Source: Candidatus Polarisedimenticola svalbardensis
Lineage (GTDB): Bacteria; Acidobacteriota; Polarisedimenticolia; Polarisedimenticolales; Polarisedimenticolaceae
Assembly: GCA_014764515.1 (NCBI GenBank)
Contig: JACXWD010000030.1
Coordinates: 1-36,054 of the forward strand
Direction of reading: 5' to 3'
Length of the DNA stretch: 36,054 nucleotides
The notes below the pieces were generated by a model. That model saw nothing but the letters and a program-made list of their open reading frames with translations, searched no databases and was not told the origin of the DNA. This document shows, piece after piece, positions 13,122-19,671 of the stretch (position 1 is its first letter; every line of letters begins with the position of its first letter). Position numbers and translations under genes: made by a program.

Positions 13122-13541
13122 CTAGCGGTGCCGGCGGCGTTCCCGTCCGTTCCAGCCGGCATTCCGATACTGTGTGCATGCAGGGTTTGTGCTCAGTGTT
13201 CCTTCTGCGTCCAGGAGCCCCCTTTCCCTGGCGGAAAGGACGATCTGATCAAAGAGAACCTGATCGATGGCGACGGCGGTGTACTCAACACCGTTGGATT
13301 CCAGAAGGGCGAAGAACGATCGCAGATGGTTGCGCGACCCCTTCATTAAGTTCTGGAAAACGGTGCGCACGTCCTCCCCGGTGGCGGTTTCAGTGGCGCT
13401 TGGTGCAAAGTAGGGTAGGTCCGCCACGATGGTTGCGAGGTTGCAGTTCTGTTTTGCCCGTCTTTCAGGTGTCGCGCCCTGCCCCAGGGCGATCGGCACG
13501 GCCAGTCCAAAGATCACGATCAGAATACATAGACGTCTCAT
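13122..13541 (-). CDS. Minimal secreted DUF2202-type protein
   Basis: The 139-residue product begins at the ATG at 13541 after GGAGGAAAG and has a Sec signal peptide (LCILIVIFGLAVPIALGQG). The mature core contains VRTVFQNLMKGSRNHLRSF and ALLESNGVEYTA. These match the C-terminal helix segment of DUF2202, a ferritin-like family that usually carries further N-terminal helices with acidic and His residues. Those helices are absent, and nothing upstream in frame resembles them, so this is a short natural variant or a domain remnant given a signal peptide. Two cysteines (QNCNLA; NPACTQ) could form a disulfide. A sigma-54 promoter lies upstream and an intrinsic terminator downstream, so it is a single-gene unit controlled in parallel with the divergent two-component cluster. 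Metal binding is inferred from the family only. Confidence 0.8.
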   Translation of the reverse strand: MRRLCILIVIFGLAVPIALGQGATPERRAKQNCNLATIVADLPYFAPSATETATGEDVRTVFQNLMKGSRNHLRSFFALLESNGVEYTAVAIDQVLFDQIVLSARERGLLDAEGTLSTNPACTQYRNAGWNGRERRRHR

Positions 13542-13596
13542 CAATCTTTCCTCCACGTCCAGCAGTTGAGCACCGCAGAAACCACACAACTCCAGA

Positions 13597-13612
13597 GCAG
13601 GTCCCGTGCCAA
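13597..13612 (-). promoter_or_regulatory. Sigma-54 promoter for the DUF2202 gene
   Basis: On the minus strand the sequence reads TTGGCAC-GGGAC-CTGCT. The -24 element TGGCAC is perfect (13611-13606), the spacer is five bases, and the -12 element is CTGC (13600-13597), with the essential GC retained. The predicted start is at about 13585, leaving a 44-base leader before the ATG at 13541. It diverges from a second sigma-54 promoter 140 bp away. Confidence 0.75.
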
Positions 13613-13673
13613 TGTGGAAAGAATGCCGATCCCGCTGCTCTTCTCCGGAGCAAGGCGATGGGCCGGCTGCAAA

Positions 13674-13722
13674 CCGACGATTTGTGCAGGCTCGAGAGGG
13701 GCTGTTTCGTCGAAATCGTCGG
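13674..13722. promoter_or_regulatory. Inverted repeat, candidate enhancer site for the response regulator
   Basis: CCGACGATTT (13674-13683) and AAATCGTCGG (13713-13722) are perfect 10-bp inverted arms separated by 29 bp. A tighter 5-bp-arm palindrome (TTTCG-T-CGAAA, 13705-13715) overlaps the right arm. The repeat lies between the two divergent sigma-54 promoters. Its centre is about 80 bp upstream of one predicted start and about 112 bp upstream of the other, within normal range for an NtrC-type activator. Binding by the adjacent regulator is inferred. Confidence 0.5.
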
Positions 13723-13751
13723 ATTCGGGCCAGTCTGTCCCTTGATTTGCT

Positions 13752-13767
13752 TGGCACACCGCTTGCA
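13752..13767 (+). promoter_or_regulatory. Consensus-perfect sigma-54 promoter for the two-component cluster
   Basis: TGGCAC (13752-13757), ACCGC and TTGCA (13763-13767) match the sigma-54 consensus TGGCACRN4TTGCW at every defined position. The predicted start at about 13778 gives a 66-base leader before the gene at 13844. The cluster it drives encodes its own sigma-54 activator at 16032-17399, which points to positive autoregulation. Confidence 0.88.
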
Positions 13768-13843
13768 ACTTCGGCCGGTGACAGGTCCGGCACCGGAAAC
13801 GACGGGACGGCTTCTGGAACACGGACCGGAAAGGAACAAGGAG

Positions 13844-14371
13844 ATGACCATGAAGAAACAGCTAATGATCGCAGCGGTCCTCCTGTTGGTGTTTTCCCTG
13901 GCGCCGGCAATGGCCCAGGAAGGGGAGCCGACGGAAGTGAAGGGAGAGGTAATCCAGGTTCAACTCCAGCAGCGCTTGCAGACCGGGAACCAGGGTGAGT
14001 TCGACCACCTCATGATCCAGACCCGGGAAGGGGTCCAGATGAGGGTGCGTCTCGGTGAAGGCGGGAGTTGCGAAGGGATGGTTGCCGAAGGGGATCAGGT
14101 TCGCCTTCGGTTGATGGCCGGCGGGCCGGTGGACGGCGCCTACCAGGCTCGCACCATGAAAGTACGCAGGACCGGAGAGTCCTACCAGTTCAGGAATGAG
14201 GCCGGGGATATGGTCCAGATCAGGGCCCAAACCCGCGCCCAGGACGGTACCGGTGACGGGGTCCAGGTTCGAACCCGGTCCCAGACCCGGCATCAGTCCG
14301 GTTCCTCTTCTGGCCGCGGGTCCTCCGGCGGTGGGCAAGGCGGCGGCCGCCAGGGTGGCGGAGGTCGTTGA
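13844..14371 (+). CDS. Small exported OB-fold-like protein with Gly-rich tail
   Basis: The 175-residue product starts MTMKKQL with AAGGAG close upstream; the ATG at 13850 is equally possible. A Sec signal peptide ends APAMAQE. The mature domain (about 25-120) is a run of short beta-strands (VKGEVIQVQLQ, EFDHLMIQTREG, QMRVRLG, GDQVRLRLM, AYQARTMKVRR). This order resembles small periplasmic OB-folds of the YgiW/BOF kind, but I cannot assign it to a named family. The tail is low-complexity: first Gln/Arg/Thr-rich (RAQTRAQDG; QVRTRSQTRHQ), then Ser/Gly-rich with no hydrophobic residues. It is the first gene after the sigma-54 promoter, so probably the most strongly induced product of the cluster. 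It has similar architecture to the gene at 18314. Confidence 0.8.
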   Translation: MTMKKQLMIAAVLLLVFSLAPAMAQEGEPTEVKGEVIQVQLQQRLQTGNQGEFDHLMIQTREGVQMRVRLGEGGSCEGMVAEGDQVRLRLMAGGPVDGAYQARTMKVRRTGESYQFRNEAGDMVQIRAQTRAQDGTGDGVQVRTRSQTRHQSGSSSGRGSSGGGQGGGRQGGGGR

Positions 14372-14400: not shown

Positions 14401-16032
14401 GTGATGAAACGCCCTGCATCGCCATTGACCATGTTTCTTCTGCTCATCATCGCCGCCGCCCTGGCTTTTTGGGCGATTGTCGAGGGGCGCCGACAGCGAA
14501 GCGAGACCGCCGAGGTGCTGGCGTCCCAGGCCGCCGTTCTGGCGCGGGCCCTCGCTCCCGGACTGGCTGCCGCATCCAGCGCCGCCAGGGAGATCGATGA
14601 AGAGGCTGCCGCAAGGGTCCTGGTGAGCGCCCGCATCCTCGCCACCCTCGAACCGGTTGGAGAGATCTCCCATTCACAGGCGCAGGTGATCGCCGAGCAA
14701 AATGATATGGATTCCATCGTATACATCGAGCCGAACGGAAGGCCGGTGCTCCTGGCGGGAGAGCCGGTTCCTGGACCGGTGCTGGAACAGGTCGCCGATG
14801 TGGTCATCGGCGAAGCCGATGAACTGGTGCTCGGTTCGGACAGGGAAGATGGTGTGGAGCATGTTGCGGCGGTGGTCCGGACCGCTGCCGGCGGCGCCGT
14901 GGTTGTACGTGCCCATCTTCCTGCAGTGCTGTCTTATACCGAAAGCGTCGGTGTGGACAATCTGTTGCGGCGCCTTGCCGGTTCAGGCGGGCTGCTCTAC
15001 CTGGAATATTCTGAATCGCCCGGCGATGTTCTTCTGGGAGCGACCTGGGACGGCGGACCGGTCCCCGAGCCGCTGGACAACGGCGACCGGCTCCGGATTG
15101 TGCGACAGCGCGACGTATTCGAGATCGGGGTGCCGGTTTCTACGCCGGCGGGACTTCAGGCCGAACTGCGGGTCGGCCTGGACGGCGCCCCGCTGGCGCA
15201 GGCATCCGCGTCCGCCGTACGACGCACCACACTGGTAGGGCTGGTGCTGGTGGTGTTCAGCCTGGCGCTGGTCAGTATCGCCATGCTGACCCGAAGCCGG
15301 ACGATGGAACGGGAACAGGCCAGCCGGCGCATGGCTGATCTTGAAAACGCCCGCAGGCAGAGCGAGCGTTTGGCGGCGGCAGGAGCGCTAACCGCAGGCC
15401 TGGCCCACGAGGTGCGGTCGCCGCTGAACGCTATCGGTCTGTCGGCCCAGCGCATCGGCAGGAACGCATCCGACTCCCGGGAGTGCGGCCGGCTCGCAGT
15501 CAAGATCCGCTCTGAGATCGGGCGGCTGGAAACGGTCCTGCGGGATTTCCTGGTGCTGGCGAGTCCGGTGGGAGTGGCCAGGGAGATTACGGACCTCAGG
15601 CGCCTGGTAGACGGGGTCCTGGAACTGCTTGCAGCGGAAGCGGAAGAGGCCGGGATCTCGCTCGCCTGCGCCGGGCCGGGGGCTGTGGCCCGAGTGGACC
15701 CGGAGTCGATCCGGCGGGCTGTGATCAACCTGGTGCGCAACGCCATTCAGGCCAGCGGGCCAGGCGGGGAGGTCCGCATCGATATCGCCGCCCATAACGG
15801 TGAGAGCATGATCTCGGTTCGTGACCGCGGGCGGGGTCTGGACGACAGCCTGGGGGACAGGGTGTTCGACGCGTTCGTCACCACGTCCGCCGATGGAACG
15901 GGGCTGGGCCTGGCCCTTGTTAAAAGGGTGGCGGAAGAGCATGGCGGGCAGGTCACCCTGGCGAACCTGGATGACGGCGGCGCCGTAGCCGAGTTGCGAT
16001 TGCCGGCATGCGCTGCTGTGGAGAGTTCGTGA
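14401..16032 (+). CDS. Membrane sensor histidine kinase
   Basis: The 543-residue protein begins at the GTG at 14401 or the ATG at 14404. A first membrane helix (MFLLLIIAAALAFWAIVEG), an extracytoplasmic sensor region of about 240 residues without recognisable domain, and a second helix (TTLVGLVLVVFSLALVSIAML) precede a coiled linker. The phosphoacceptor is His336 in GLAHEVRSPLN. The ATPase domain has the N box (RRAVINLVRNAIQASG), G1 (VRDRGRGLDDS) and G2 (SADGTGLGLALVKRV). This is the NtrB/ZraS-like layout usual for partners of sigma-54 regulators. Its stop codon overlaps the regulator start (TGATG), which indicates a cognate pair. The ligand is unknown; the periplasmic sensor and exported neighbours suggest an envelope or metal signal. 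Confidence 0.95.
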   Translation: MMKRPASPLTMFLLLIIAAALAFWAIVEGRRQRSETAEVLASQAAVLARALAPGLAAASSAAREIDEEAAARVLVSARILATLEPVGEISHSQAQVIAEQNDMDSIVYIEPNGRPVLLAGEPVPGPVLEQVADVVIGEADELVLGSDREDGVEHVAAVVRTAAGGAVVVRAHLPAVLSYTESVGVDNLLRRLAGSGGLLYLEYSESPGDVLLGATWDGGPVPEPLDNGDRLRIVRQRDVFEIGVPVSTPAGLQAELRVGLDGAPLAQASASAVRRTTLVGLVLVVFSLALVSIAMLTRSRTMEREQASRRMADLENARRQSERLAAAGALTAGLAHEVRSPLNAIGLSAQRIGRNASDSRECGRLAVKIRSEIGRLETVLRDFLVLASPVGVAREITDLRRLVDGVLELLAAEAEEAGISLACAGPGAVARVDPESIRRAVINLVRNAIQASGPGGEVRIDIAAHNGESMISVRDRGRGLDDSLGDRVFDAFVTTSADGTGLGLALVKRVAEEHGGQVTLANLDDGGAVAELRLPACAAVESS

Positions 16033-17399
16033 TGAAACTGGATGCACACATCCTGGTGGTTGACGATGATGCGTCCCAGCGTGAAGAACTGGCCGGGTTC
16101 CTGGCGGATCTGGGCGCCGAAGTCCGGGAGGCGTCCGATGGCCGGGAGGCGCTGGAATCGATCCTGCGCCACGCGCCGGACCTCTGCATAACCGATTTTC
16201 GCATGCCCCGCATGGACGGCGGCGAGCTGCTTCATGAGATTCGGCAGGTCAACCCGGACATCGGCGTGATTCTGGTGACGGCGTACGGCAACGTGGAAGG
16301 CGCGGTGGCCTGTCTCAAGGACGGTGCGGCCGAATACCTTCTCAAGCCACTGGACCTGGACGAAGTGGAACACATCGTCCGCAAGCTGCTGGATGCCCGC
16401 CAGCTGCGTCGGGAGAACCGGGACCTGAAGGAGCGGCTGTCCCGGGTCGAGTCGGTGCCCGGGATCGTCACCGCCGGAGGGGCGATGACCCCGGTGTTGT
16501 CCATGGTGGCGCGGGTGGCCAGGTCCACCGCCTCGGTGCTGCTCCAGGGAGAGAGCGGCACAGGCAAGGAACTGGTGGCCCGGGCGATCCACAGTGCCGG
16601 CGCCCGGTCCGACGCCCCGTTCGTTGCGGTCAATGCCGGAGCGCTCTCAAGGCACCTTCTGGAGAGTGAACTTTTCGGCCATGAAAAAGGCGCCTTCACC
16701 GGAGCGGACCGTCCCCGTGAAGGCCGTTTCCAGGCGGCGGAGGGGGGCACGCTGTTTCTGGACGAGATCGGGGATCTGCCCCAGGAACTGCAGGTCAAAC
16801 TTCTGCGGGCCCTGCAGGAGCGGACCATCGAGCGGGTCGGCTCCAACCGTCCGGTGCCTGTTGACGTCCGGGTTGTTGCCGCCACCCACCGGGATCTGGC
16901 CCTTGAGATCCGGGAAGGGCGTTTCCGGGAGGACCTGTACTACCGGCTGGCGGTTGTGAGCGTCGATCTCCCGCCACTTCGAAGCAGGAAGGCGGACATC
17001 CCGCTGCTGGTGGACCATTTCCTGCACAAGCACCGCGCCGATCTGGACGGATCGCCGGCGGCTTTATCCAGGGAGGCGATGGATCTGCTGATCGCATACG
17101 ACTTCCCGGGAAACGTCAGGGAGCTGGAGAACATCGTGCGTCGCGGCATGGTCCTGGCCCGTGGAGACCAGATCACGGTGGACGACCTGCCGGCGTCGGT
17201 TCTCGTGTCTCGGAATGAGACCGGTGCAGAGAGCGCTGCCGGGGAGACCCTTCCCGGCCGAATGGCCGCATTGGAGAAAGAGGCGATTCAGGAGGCGCTG
17301 GCGCAGGAAAAGGGCGTGATTGTACGGGCCGCGCACAGGCTGGGGATTTCCGAACGCGCCCTGCGCTACAAGGCGGAAAAATACGAACTGAAGTCATGA
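16032..17399 (+). CDS. Sigma-54-dependent response regulator (NtrC/ZraR type)
   Basis: The 455-residue activator has three domains. The receiver (about 1-120) has the acidic pair DDD at 11-13, phosphoacceptor Asp55 in CITDFRMPRMDGG, the Thr of LVTAYG, and Lys in LLKPLDL. The AAA+ domain (about 140-370) has Walker A GESGTGKE, the sigma-54-contacting GAFTGA loop, Walker B GGTLFLDEIGDLP and the arginine-finger region. The C-terminal Fis-type helix-turn-helix ends RAAHRLGISERALRYKAEKY. All parts needed to activate sigma-54 promoters are intact. Start: the ATG at 16032, overlapping the kinase stop. The two sigma-54 promoters in the 13542-13843 gap are the obvious targets. Confidence 0.97.
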   Translation: MKLDAHILVVDDDASQREELAGFLADLGAEVREASDGREALESILRHAPDLCITDFRMPRMDGGELLHEIRQVNPDIGVILVTAYGNVEGAVACLKDGAAEYLLKPLDLDEVEHIVRKLLDARQLRRENRDLKERLSRVESVPGIVTAGGAMTPVLSMVARVARSTASVLLQGESGTGKELVARAIHSAGARSDAPFVAVNAGALSRHLLESELFGHEKGAFTGADRPREGRFQAAEGGTLFLDEIGDLPQELQVKLLRALQERTIERVGSNRPVPVDVRVVAATHRDLALEIREGRFREDLYYRLAVVSVDLPPLRSRKADIPLLVDHFLHKHRADLDGSPAALSREAMDLLIAYDFPGNVRELENIVRRGMVLARGDQITVDDLPASVLVSRNETGAESAAGETLPGRMAALEKEAIQEALAQEKGVIVRAAHRLGISERALRYKAEKYELKS

Positions 17400-17423: not shown

Positions 17424-18317
17424 ATGAATCAACAACAGATCGGGTGCCTGATAATCGCAATTCTATTTCTATCCGTTGGCGCCGCAGGCGCCGGGGATCG
17501 GCCCGGGGAGTGGACCCTGTTGACCACCTACAGTTCGGGCGACTTTGGAACCGACACGGTGGTGGACAGCTCATCCATGATTGTCCGTTACGCCATCGGC
17601 AATCGCTGGCGGCTGCAGGTCGATCTGCCGATGATCCGATCCGAGTTTGCCTACGGAGTCGTGAACACCGGAGCCGGTCCGGCGCCGATCGGTCCGGAGG
17701 AGGAAATGCGCCGGCGTGGGAGCGGACCGGGCAGCGGACAAGGCAGCGGCGGATCACTGCCGGTCATGGCGGCGGTTTACGAATCGGACACCGGCTGGAA
17801 TCAGGGTGTCGGGGATGTCCGTATTGGGCTTTCCAGGCGCTTGGCCGGCGGCGGGGTGCGGCTGTTCCGGTTCGACGCCGAACTGAACACCAAGCTTCCT
17901 ACTGCAGAGGAGGCTGACGGACTGGGCACCGGCGAAACCGATGTCCGCCTCGGTCTGGCGGGAGACTACAAGTTCTGGTCGGCCACCATGTTCGCCGGCG
18001 CCGGGTTCAACCGGCTGGGTGATCCGTGGTGGGGCGAGCTCAACGATGTCGTCGATCTGTATGCCGGGATTGAAAGCGATCCGATCGCCGGCGGCCGGCT
18101 GATCCTGTCCGGGTGGGTCTCGGCGCTGCAGGAGGTCGTGGACGGGGCCGGAGACCTGGCCAGCGTCGGCGCAGGTCTGCGGACCACCGGGAAATACCGT
18201 TGGTATGCGCAGGTGGCCACCGGAGTGCGGGACGCTTCGCCGGATACGGCGGTACTGGTCGGCCTGGCGTTCGGTACCGACGGCGGTGAACGGTTTCGCC
18301 GGGGAGGTTTGAAATGA
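17424..18317 (+). CDS. Outer-membrane barrel protein, MetA-pathway/transporter-like
   Basis: The 297-residue protein has a signal peptide (CLIIAILFLSVGAAGAG). The mature part is made of alternating amphipathic strands (WTLLTTYSSGDFG, RWRLQVDLPMI, GVGDVRIGLSRRLAGG, VRLFRFDAELNTKLPT, TDVRLGLAGDYKFW). This fits the Phenol_MetA_deg group of outer-membrane beta-barrels. The members' role is unclear, often hydrophobic-compound uptake or a structural porin-like function. A Gly/Ser/Arg-rich insertion (RRRGSGPGSGQGSGG) lies at about residues 96-110, probably a surface or periplasmic loop. It sits 24 bp after the regulator gene and overlaps the next start by 4 bp, so it belongs to the same cluster. Confidence 0.82.
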   Translation: MNQQQIGCLIIAILFLSVGAAGAGDRPGEWTLLTTYSSGDFGTDTVVDSSSMIVRYAIGNRWRLQVDLPMIRSEFAYGVVNTGAGPAPIGPEEEMRRRGSGPGSGQGSGGSLPVMAAVYESDTGWNQGVGDVRIGLSRRLAGGGVRLFRFDAELNTKLPTAEEADGLGTGETDVRLGLAGDYKFWSATMFAGAGFNRLGDPWWGELNDVVDLYAGIESDPIAGGRLILSGWVSALQEVVDGAGDLASVGAGLRTTGKYRWYAQVATGVRDASPDTAVLVGLAFGTDGGERFRRGGLK

Positions 18318-18796
18318 ACAGGACGGTCTGTGGTCGCCTCGCGGCGGCGCTGATTGTTCTGCTGGCCACCACCGGTTTCGCTTCCGCTGCCGGGGACGGC
18401 GCCGGGCCGGTACGAACCTCAATGAAAACCGTCACCGGCGTAGTGGAGAGCTTGGCCGTCGTGCCGGCAGAAGGCGGAATCGATGTTGTCCGTGTGACCC
18501 TGATCCTCGACGAGAAAACCGGAGCATCGCTGGATGTGCTACTGGCTCCCGAAGGGCTGATGGACGAGATCGGCTTCACCGTTCAGGAAGGTGACCGGCT
18601 CAAGGTCAAGTACTTCCTGGACGAGGAGGGTCCGGCCAGGGCACACAAGGTCCTGAATACCACTCGCGGCTCCATGGTGCGCTTCAGGACCTTGAGGCAG
18701 ATCCCGTTATGGAGCAACCAGGGTGCGTGGCAGGGCGGCGCCGCACGGTCCCAACCGGGTAACGGCGGCGACCCCACCCGCGGCGGACGAAACTAA
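18314..18796 (+). CDS. Small exported beta-rich protein with Gly-rich tail
   Basis: The 160-residue product has a signal peptide (AAALIVLLATTGFASAAG) and a compact beta-rich core. The core runs VTGVVESLAVVPAEGG, DVVRVTLILDEKTG, LDVLLAPEG, GDRLKVKYFLDEEGP and ends MVRFRTLRQIPLW. A Gly/Asn/Gln-rich disordered tail follows. The order of strands (a VxGxV opening, a GDxxxV/LK strand near the middle, a hydrophobic end) mirrors the protein at 13844, so both may be OB-fold-like members of one functional class. I do not recognise a named family. The start overlaps the preceding stop (ATGA), showing coupling. Its stop overlaps the convergent metallohydrolase stop by 4 bp. Confidence 0.78.
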   Translation: MNRTVCGRLAAALIVLLATTGFASAAGDGAGPVRTSMKTVTGVVESLAVVPAEGGIDVVRVTLILDEKTGASLDVLLAPEGLMDEIGFTVQEGDRLKVKYFLDEEGPARAHKVLNTTRGSMVRFRTLRQIPLWSNQGAWQGGAARSQPGNGGDPTRGGRN

Positions 18797-19671
18797 AGCG
18801 ACATGTAAACGAACTCCACGAACTGGTCGCCCTTTATCCAGCCCTGGCCCCAGGTTTCGTCCAGGTCGGCAGTCGGTTTGGCGGCTACCGTTTCTTCCAG
18901 GGTCTTGCCGGCTGTCTTGAGCTCGGCCACCCGGTCCCGCACGCTGCGGATCATTTTGAGATAACCTTCAAGCCCTTCCCGGCCGCTGCCCGGGCCGTGG
19001 CCTGCGATGAACCGGGTGTCGGCCCCTGACATGGCCAGCGCCTTCTCGATGCCGGCGACCAGTCCACCGACGGAACCGCCGGACCCCAGGTCGATGAACG
19101 GGTACATGCCGCTGAAATAAAGATCACCCATGTGGATTACGTCGGCTTTGTCGAATTGAACCAGGGCGTCACCGTCGGTGTGGGCGTGGGGAACATGCAC
19201 GACCCGCAGTGTGTCGCCGTTGATGTGGAAGGTCACCGTTTCGGAGAAGGTCACCACCGGCAGGGCGCCCTTGGGCGACGCAGGCACGTCCTTCTGCAGG
19301 AACTCCAGGAACTGGTCGGTGCTCATCCGGGCCCGGACATTGTCGTGGGCCACGATCAGGCTGCCGGTCTTGCCCATGTTTTCATTGCCGCCGACGTGAT
19401 CACCGTGCCAGTGGGTGTTCAGGACGAACTCCACCGGTCCTTTCCGGATTGCGGCGATGGCTTCCAGGATCTTGGGGGTGAGGGGGGCGTACTGATCGTC
19501 GATCAGGAAAATGCCGTCCTCGCCTGCAGAGACGCCCAGGGTGCCGCCGGCGCCCTCCAGCATCCAGACATGCCCGGATACCTGGGACGCCTTGATTTCC
19601 ACCGCATCAAAATCCTGGGCCGCCGCCGGCAGGACCAGAAGCATCGCTACAAGGCCGATCAGTACTTTCAT
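18793..19671 (-). CDS. Periplasmic metallo-beta-lactamase-fold hydrolase
   Basis: The 292-residue product has a signal peptide (VLIGLVAMLLVLPAAAQ) and a complete MBL-fold metal site. It has HWHGDHVGG (first zinc cluster), the His of VPHAHTDGDALV, the Asp of VIHMGDLYF, and the final His in FIAGHGPGSG. The region after the first strand, GTLGVSAGEDGIFLIDDQYAPL, is typical of the subgroup annotated as MBL fold metallo-hydrolase or cyclase. Close relatives include quinoprotein-associated and B3-like hydrolases; there is no evidence that it degrades beta-lactams. A GGGAGGG ribosome site precedes the ATG. It is a single-gene unit divergent from the PRC-barrel gene. Confidence 0.92.
   Translation of the reverse strand: MKVLIGLVAMLLVLPAAAQDFDAVEIKASQVSGHVWMLEGAGGTLGVSAGEDGIFLIDDQYAPLTPKILEAIAAIRKGPVEFVLNTHWHGDHVGGNENMGKTGSLIVAHDNVRARMSTDQFLEFLQKDVPASPKGALPVVTFSETVTFHINGDTLRVVHVPHAHTDGDALVQFDKADVIHMGDLYFSGMYPFIDLGSGGSVGGLVAGIEKALAMSGADTRFIAGHGPGSGREGLEGYLKMIRSVRDRVAELKTAGKTLEETVAAKPTADLDETWGQGWIKGDQFVEFVYMSL

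Follow-up and report, generated by a model that had tools for sequence, protein, structure and literature searches.

Predicted divergent sigma-54 promoters and a candidate shared enhancer beside a two-component regulator in Candidatus Polarisedimenticola svalbardensis

The window analyzed here (the whole stretch of 36,054 nucleotides from contig JACXWD010000030.1) contains a 302-bp non-coding gap, positions 13542-13843, that is flanked by two divergent start codons: the ATG of a DUF2202 gene at 13541 on the minus strand, and that of a gene for a small secreted protein at 13844 on the plus strand. The initial annotation had placed a sigma-54 promoter on each strand of this gap, and had proposed that a sigma-54 activator encoded about 2.2 kb downstream switches on both its own operon and the DUF2202 gene. 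This raises two questions, namely whether both promoters are genuine, and which of the sigma-54 activators of this genome acts on them. The genes of the locus are as follows:

13122 to 13541, minus strand: secreted DUF2202 protein of 139 aa (Pfam PF09968, E 5.8e-12, profile positions 107-161 of 162)
13844 to 14371, plus strand: small secreted protein with a basic, glycine-rich tail and no known family
14401 to 16032, plus strand: membrane histidine kinase (HisKA and HATPase_c), its C-terminal part ZraS-like
16032 to 17399, plus strand: sigma-54-activating response regulator with the GAFTGA motif and the helix LGISERALRYK (longest open reading frame from 16008)
17424 to 18317, plus strand: barrel-like secreted protein, late in the operon, with no family match
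18314 to 18796, plus strand: second small secreted protein, with weak secondary profile matches to the first at the corresponding genes of relatives

The start codon of the regulator gene overlaps the stop codon of the kinase gene, and its ATG at 16032 is ~2.27 kb downstream. The protein combines a receiver (PF00072), a sigma-54 AAA+ domain (PF00158) and a Fis-type helix-turn-helix (PF02954), which is the domain content of an NtrC-class bacterial enhancer-binding protein, and its GAFTGA loop, read directly, is intact. Neither the small proteins nor the barrel-like protein could be placed reliably in a family by searches of Pfam and NCBIfam; a match to ExtJ in these searches was weak, confined to the N-terminal 44 residues and below the cut-off, and was rejected. 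The first small secreted protein, folded alone, gave a mean pLDDT of 45, a structure of no use, while the product of 17424 to 18317 is probably an outer-membrane protein. On the opposite strand, a gene at 18793-19671 for a secreted metallo-beta-lactamase-fold protein converges on the end of the operon; its resemblance to the SoxH-related quinoprotein relay type scored below the cut-off.

As sigma-54 (-24/-12) promoters we considered sites with GG and GC dinucleotides ten bases apart within TGGCAC-N5-TTGCW. The gap holds two such sites, 141 bp apart:

13752 to 13767, plus strand: putative sigma-54 promoter TGGCACACCGCTTGCA of the small-protein/kinase/regulator operon, exact consensus
13597 to 13611, minus strand: putative sigma-54 promoter TGGCACGGGACCTGC of the DUF2202 gene, one mismatch

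The plus site (TGGCAC-ACCGC-TTGCA) has zero mismatches over 11/11 defined positions. The minus site (TGGCAC-GGGAC-CTGC, read from 13611 to 13597) has a single mismatch, in the -12 box, and both sites carry the GG and GC dinucleotides; their sequences and coordinates are exactly those of the initial annotation. The predicted transcription starts are ~13778 for the plus promoter and ~13585 for the minus promoter. The gap region yielded no sigma-70-like site, which we counted in favor of the sigma-54 reading, and rpoN is present in the genome in one copy (PF04552, E 5.7e-64). An identical 16-mer to TGGCACACCGCTTGCA, spacer included, occurs a second time in the genome (L005 1501-1516; G000:C137:8179-8194), ~100 bp upstream of a gene for a ComEA-like helix-hairpin-helix protein.

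Promoters were compared across 41 genomes of the class, nine of which, the window's included, have the small secreted protein. The comparison yielded a palindrome whose consensus is close to TCGWCGAAATCGWCGA, and two features of the gap relate to it:

13707 to 13722, strandless: candidate shared enhancer (upstream activating sequence) TCGTCGAAATCGTCGG, a conserved palindrome and the best matrix site in 36 kb
13671 to 13683, strandless: possible second, weaker half-site AAACCGACGATTT, a weak inverted match to 13713-13725

The candidate enhancer is situated between both promoters, 29 nt from the -24 box of the plus site and 95 nt from that of the minus site. The half-site is partly kept in the same-genus relative G001, as CCCGACAATCGTT. 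The motif was first derived from these promoters themselves, and the sets of related genomes used to discover and to test it overlap, which we counted against it; to lessen circularity, the scoring matrix was trained with the tested locus or lineage withheld. A matrix trained without the window's genus still ranked 13707 first in the 36-kb window, and with leave-out matrices the promoter site was also the top site in the loci of G001, G025, G037, G035, G021 (barrel-like gene) and G018 (DUF2202). At 16/20 promoters tested, the expected count was ~0.003-0.03 for each 250 nt of upstream sequence (72 nt in G035). Weak hits, which we also counted against the motif, came from the small-protein promoters of G018, G021 and G029, and the matrix scan upstream of the small-protein gene of G006, whose regulator has a different recognition helix (SERTLRYK), returned no convincing site. 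The relaxed pattern TCGWCGARRNYGWCG was rejected as a genome scan for want of specificity, since high-G+C relatives contain it often, probably within coding sequence; a tighter core and the leave-lineage-out matrix were therefore used.

Spacing within the control region is conserved as well. The distance from the palindrome to the DUF2202 promoter is 95 nt in the window and 94 nt in both G001 and G025 (three genomes, two families), and the distance to the small-protein promoter is 29 nt in the window and in G001. The centre of the palindrome falls at ~-130 of the minus promoter and at ~-64 of the plus promoter; the latter is unusually near, which we counted against the shared-enhancer reading. 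The palindrome recurs upstream of most members of the regulon, unlinked ones included. In G021, G035, G018, G029 and G037, it is found together with a sigma-54-like site just 3' of the regulator gene, and there it precedes the barrel-like gene wherever that gene was read, such that counterparts of the barrel-like gene in relatives have an enhancer and a sigma-54-like site of their own.

We consider it highly probable that the gap is a divergent sigma-54 control region in which the local regulator acts on both promoters from one shared enhancer. We infer that sigma-54 RNA polymerase would occupy the two promoters, facing apart, and that the membrane kinase would sense an envelope or periplasmic signal, which is likely because the products are secreted, and phosphorylate the response regulator. 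The regulator would then assemble on the single palindrome at 13707-13722, with its GAFTGA loop remodeling both polymerases. From the plus promoter, the small secreted protein, the kinase, the regulator, the barrel-like protein and the second small protein would be expressed, and activation of the regulator's own operon would constitute a positive feedback loop; the minus promoter would serve the secreted DUF2202 protein. Zinc, copper and redox signals cannot be told apart from sequence.

Nearness is insufficient to name the activator of the gap, because the genome encodes ~25 sigma-54 activators, and proximity was rejected as proof of identity. Exact copies of the palindrome core CGWCGAAATYGTCG number only two in the window's genome, one in this gap and one immediately 3' of the gene for a paralogous regulator, on contig C6, and the recognition helix LGISERALRYK was seen in only these two activators among the 20 of 32 domain matches that were read. 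It is conceivable, albeit rather unlikely in our estimation, that both promoters are real but that their activator is mainly the C6 paralogue, or that the enhancer serves the two regulators jointly. With 64% identity to the local one and the same recognition helix, the C6 regulator also adjoins a copy of the enhancer of its own, and a sigma-54-like site lies 59 nt from that copy. Moreover, the local regulator of G001 (L150 2558-3928) has GSITGA in place of GAFTGA, though both promoters and the enhancer are conserved in that genome; such a loop should make a weaker sigma-54 contact, and the paralogue on contig C8 of G001 may have taken over from it. However, the local regulator of the window retains an intact loop, and most relatives have a single such regulator and still keep the enhancer and promoters.

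Regulator and targets co-occur within the class. Regulators at least 59% identical to it were found in 8 genomes of the class, all of which have the small protein, and in the ninth small-protein genome, G025, the contig ends inside the kinase gene. In G037, the small protein neighbors an activator of a different type, yet the palindrome there is perfect; the matching regulator is encoded elsewhere. This neighboring activator (helix LGLNIRTFYRK; L152 3058-4389) is located directly upstream of the small protein. Judged by sequence comparison, this tracking of the regulator by the palindrome across genomes supports the choice made among the ~25 activators, and the proposal of the initial annotation that the resident regulator controls both the operon and the DUF2202 gene appears well founded in view of promoter conservation and of the enhancer-like palindrome that follows the regulator. 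The idea that the gap might be the sole target did not hold, since the regulator family has other motif-bearing targets in the group: the unlinked DUF2202 gene, the separate promoters of the barrel-like gene and, in the same genome, the second locus by the paralogous regulator.

Less likely again, and in our view distinctly improbable, is that the plus promoter alone works, the minus match having arisen by chance and DUF2202 being transcribed in some other way. Exact sigma-54 sites numbered 6 genome-wide versus 2 in the control, while one-mismatch sites, to which the minus site belongs, numbered 40 versus 64 and were thus not commoner than in the control. Consensus alone is therefore insufficient for the minus site, which is convincing only because relatives conserve it; the shortened state of the window's DUF2202 protein (see below) would also fit a promoter match without function. 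In contrast, all 9/9 small-protein genes have a site matching at least 9/11 positions 71-102 bp before the start codon, and all 4/4 DUF2202 genes whose upstream region could be read (those of the window, G001, G025 and G018) have one 62-71 bp before it, compared to a background, in the same genomes and on the correct strand, of ~0.005 sites per 60-nt target. As the lineages are related, per-genome odds were not multiplied into a single probability.

In G001, both sites are kept, 140 bp apart. The motif bases are identical at 34/36 positions between the window and this relative, compared to 113/266 for the rest of the gap; for the minus site, 10/10 scored bases are unchanged, versus 42% identity elsewhere in the gap. 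G025, which belongs to another family of the class, shows this divergent layout too, and its DUF2202 gene is full-length. A minus-type site is kept at similar spacing from start codon and enhancer in G001, in G025 and in G018, whose unlinked DUF2202 gene is on a different contig and carries an enhancer and a promoter of its own. The initial annotation had named loss of the motif in close relatives that keep the gene order as evidence against its reading; the opposite was seen, in that both sites persist in G001 and in the more distant family. DUF2202 was found in 6/41 genomes of the class, and all six are among the 9 with the small protein. As for the notion that chance alone produced both matches in non-coding DNA rich in G+C, imperfect sigma-54 matches are frequent in this genome, but when the gap was shuffled 20,000 times with its dinucleotides preserved, just 20 shuffles had a site of at least 9/11 on each strand (and 5 a full plus-strand match), in line with the earlier judgment that two sites were unlikely by chance, and with conservation across families this leaves the notion next to no probability.

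The DUF2202 protein of the window is shortened in frame. It retains the last third of the domain together with an N-terminal CxLxxIVxDLPY segment, and is without ~90 central residues that bear the EEEKLA, EQxH and TIEDxDI segments, all three of which are present in the full-length, ferritin-like copies of G018 and G025. The window copy is thus not a full DUF2202 domain with the three earlier conserved helices. The G001 protein appears to retain at least the third segment (TIEDxDI), across a contig break. The shortening represents either an in-frame deletion or an assembly error. In the literature searched, no mention of DUF2202 was found.

Among known systems, ZraPSR is the closest in logic. 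In Salmonella, ZraR drives the divergent sigma-54 promoters of zraSR and zraP (PMC4987338). Like ZraP/ZraSR of Escherichia coli and Salmonella (PMC4987338), the locus described here would form a self-activating two-component system with divergent sigma-54 promoters and periplasmic products, and its kinase and regulator match the ZraS and ZraR models. Membership in ZraPSR nonetheless fails, because the scores are far below the cut-offs (kinase versus the ZraS model 168.7 bits, cut-off 479; regulator versus the ZraR model 438.1, cut-off 760) and there is no ZraP homologue, neither small secreted protein giving a match in Pfam or NCBIfam. The two also differ in their genes, since the operon here opens with that of a small secreted protein while DUF2202 is encoded on the divergent side, and in that the enhancer palindrome of this locus was found by comparison in the present analysis. 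The regulator scored higher against AtoC (489.4, cut-off 714) and NtrC (440.8, cut-off 558.6) than against ZraR. It has the receiver, GAFTGA-bearing AAA+ sigma-54 domain and Fis-type helix-turn-helix in common with AtoC/NtrC-type regulators, but falls under both cut-offs, and its predicted targets encode secreted proteins, not catabolic or nitrogen functions. The orp operons of Desulfovibrio vulgaris are reportedly also divergent and sigma-54-dependent, in a study concerned with the requirement for IHF; their genes are unrelated to those of this locus. The predicted logic is the same as that of ZraPSR while the target genes differ, and no new principle is involved.

We tentatively suggest that the locus belongs to an undescribed envelope or redox-stress regulon of an uncultured class, in which one two-component sigma-54 regulator, acting via TCGWCGAAATCGWCGA, controls secreted proteins of unknown fold, DUF2202, a barrel-like protein and, at the locus of the paralogue, a structured small RNA that depends on sigma-54. 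For bacteria known mostly from draft genomes, the locus describes a two-component system by its regulator, a candidate motif for DNA binding and a set of predicted targets. It also links DUF2202, an uncharacterised family, to a predicted sigma-54 response in this group, and an unlinked DUF2202 gene that bears these control elements is part of that link. With one predicted enhancer for two divergent promoters, at ~-64 and ~-130 and with conserved spacing, it offers a clean case for the sharing of an activator complex.

At the second locus, on contig C6, the sigma-54-like site near the enhancer copy is AGGCATGGATGTTGCT, and it marks the start of a conserved block:

G000:C6:62699-62920 (about L242 2200-2421), minus strand: 222-nt block, with a counterpart in G001 at G001:C8:12741-12962

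The block was absent from the 39 other genomes of the class, and it shows no conserved reading frame and no Rfam match. It is 91% identical in G001 and has a 13-bp closing stem, with a fold z of -2.98 and few covarying pairs between the two copies. We regard it as a candidate sigma-54-dependent small RNA.
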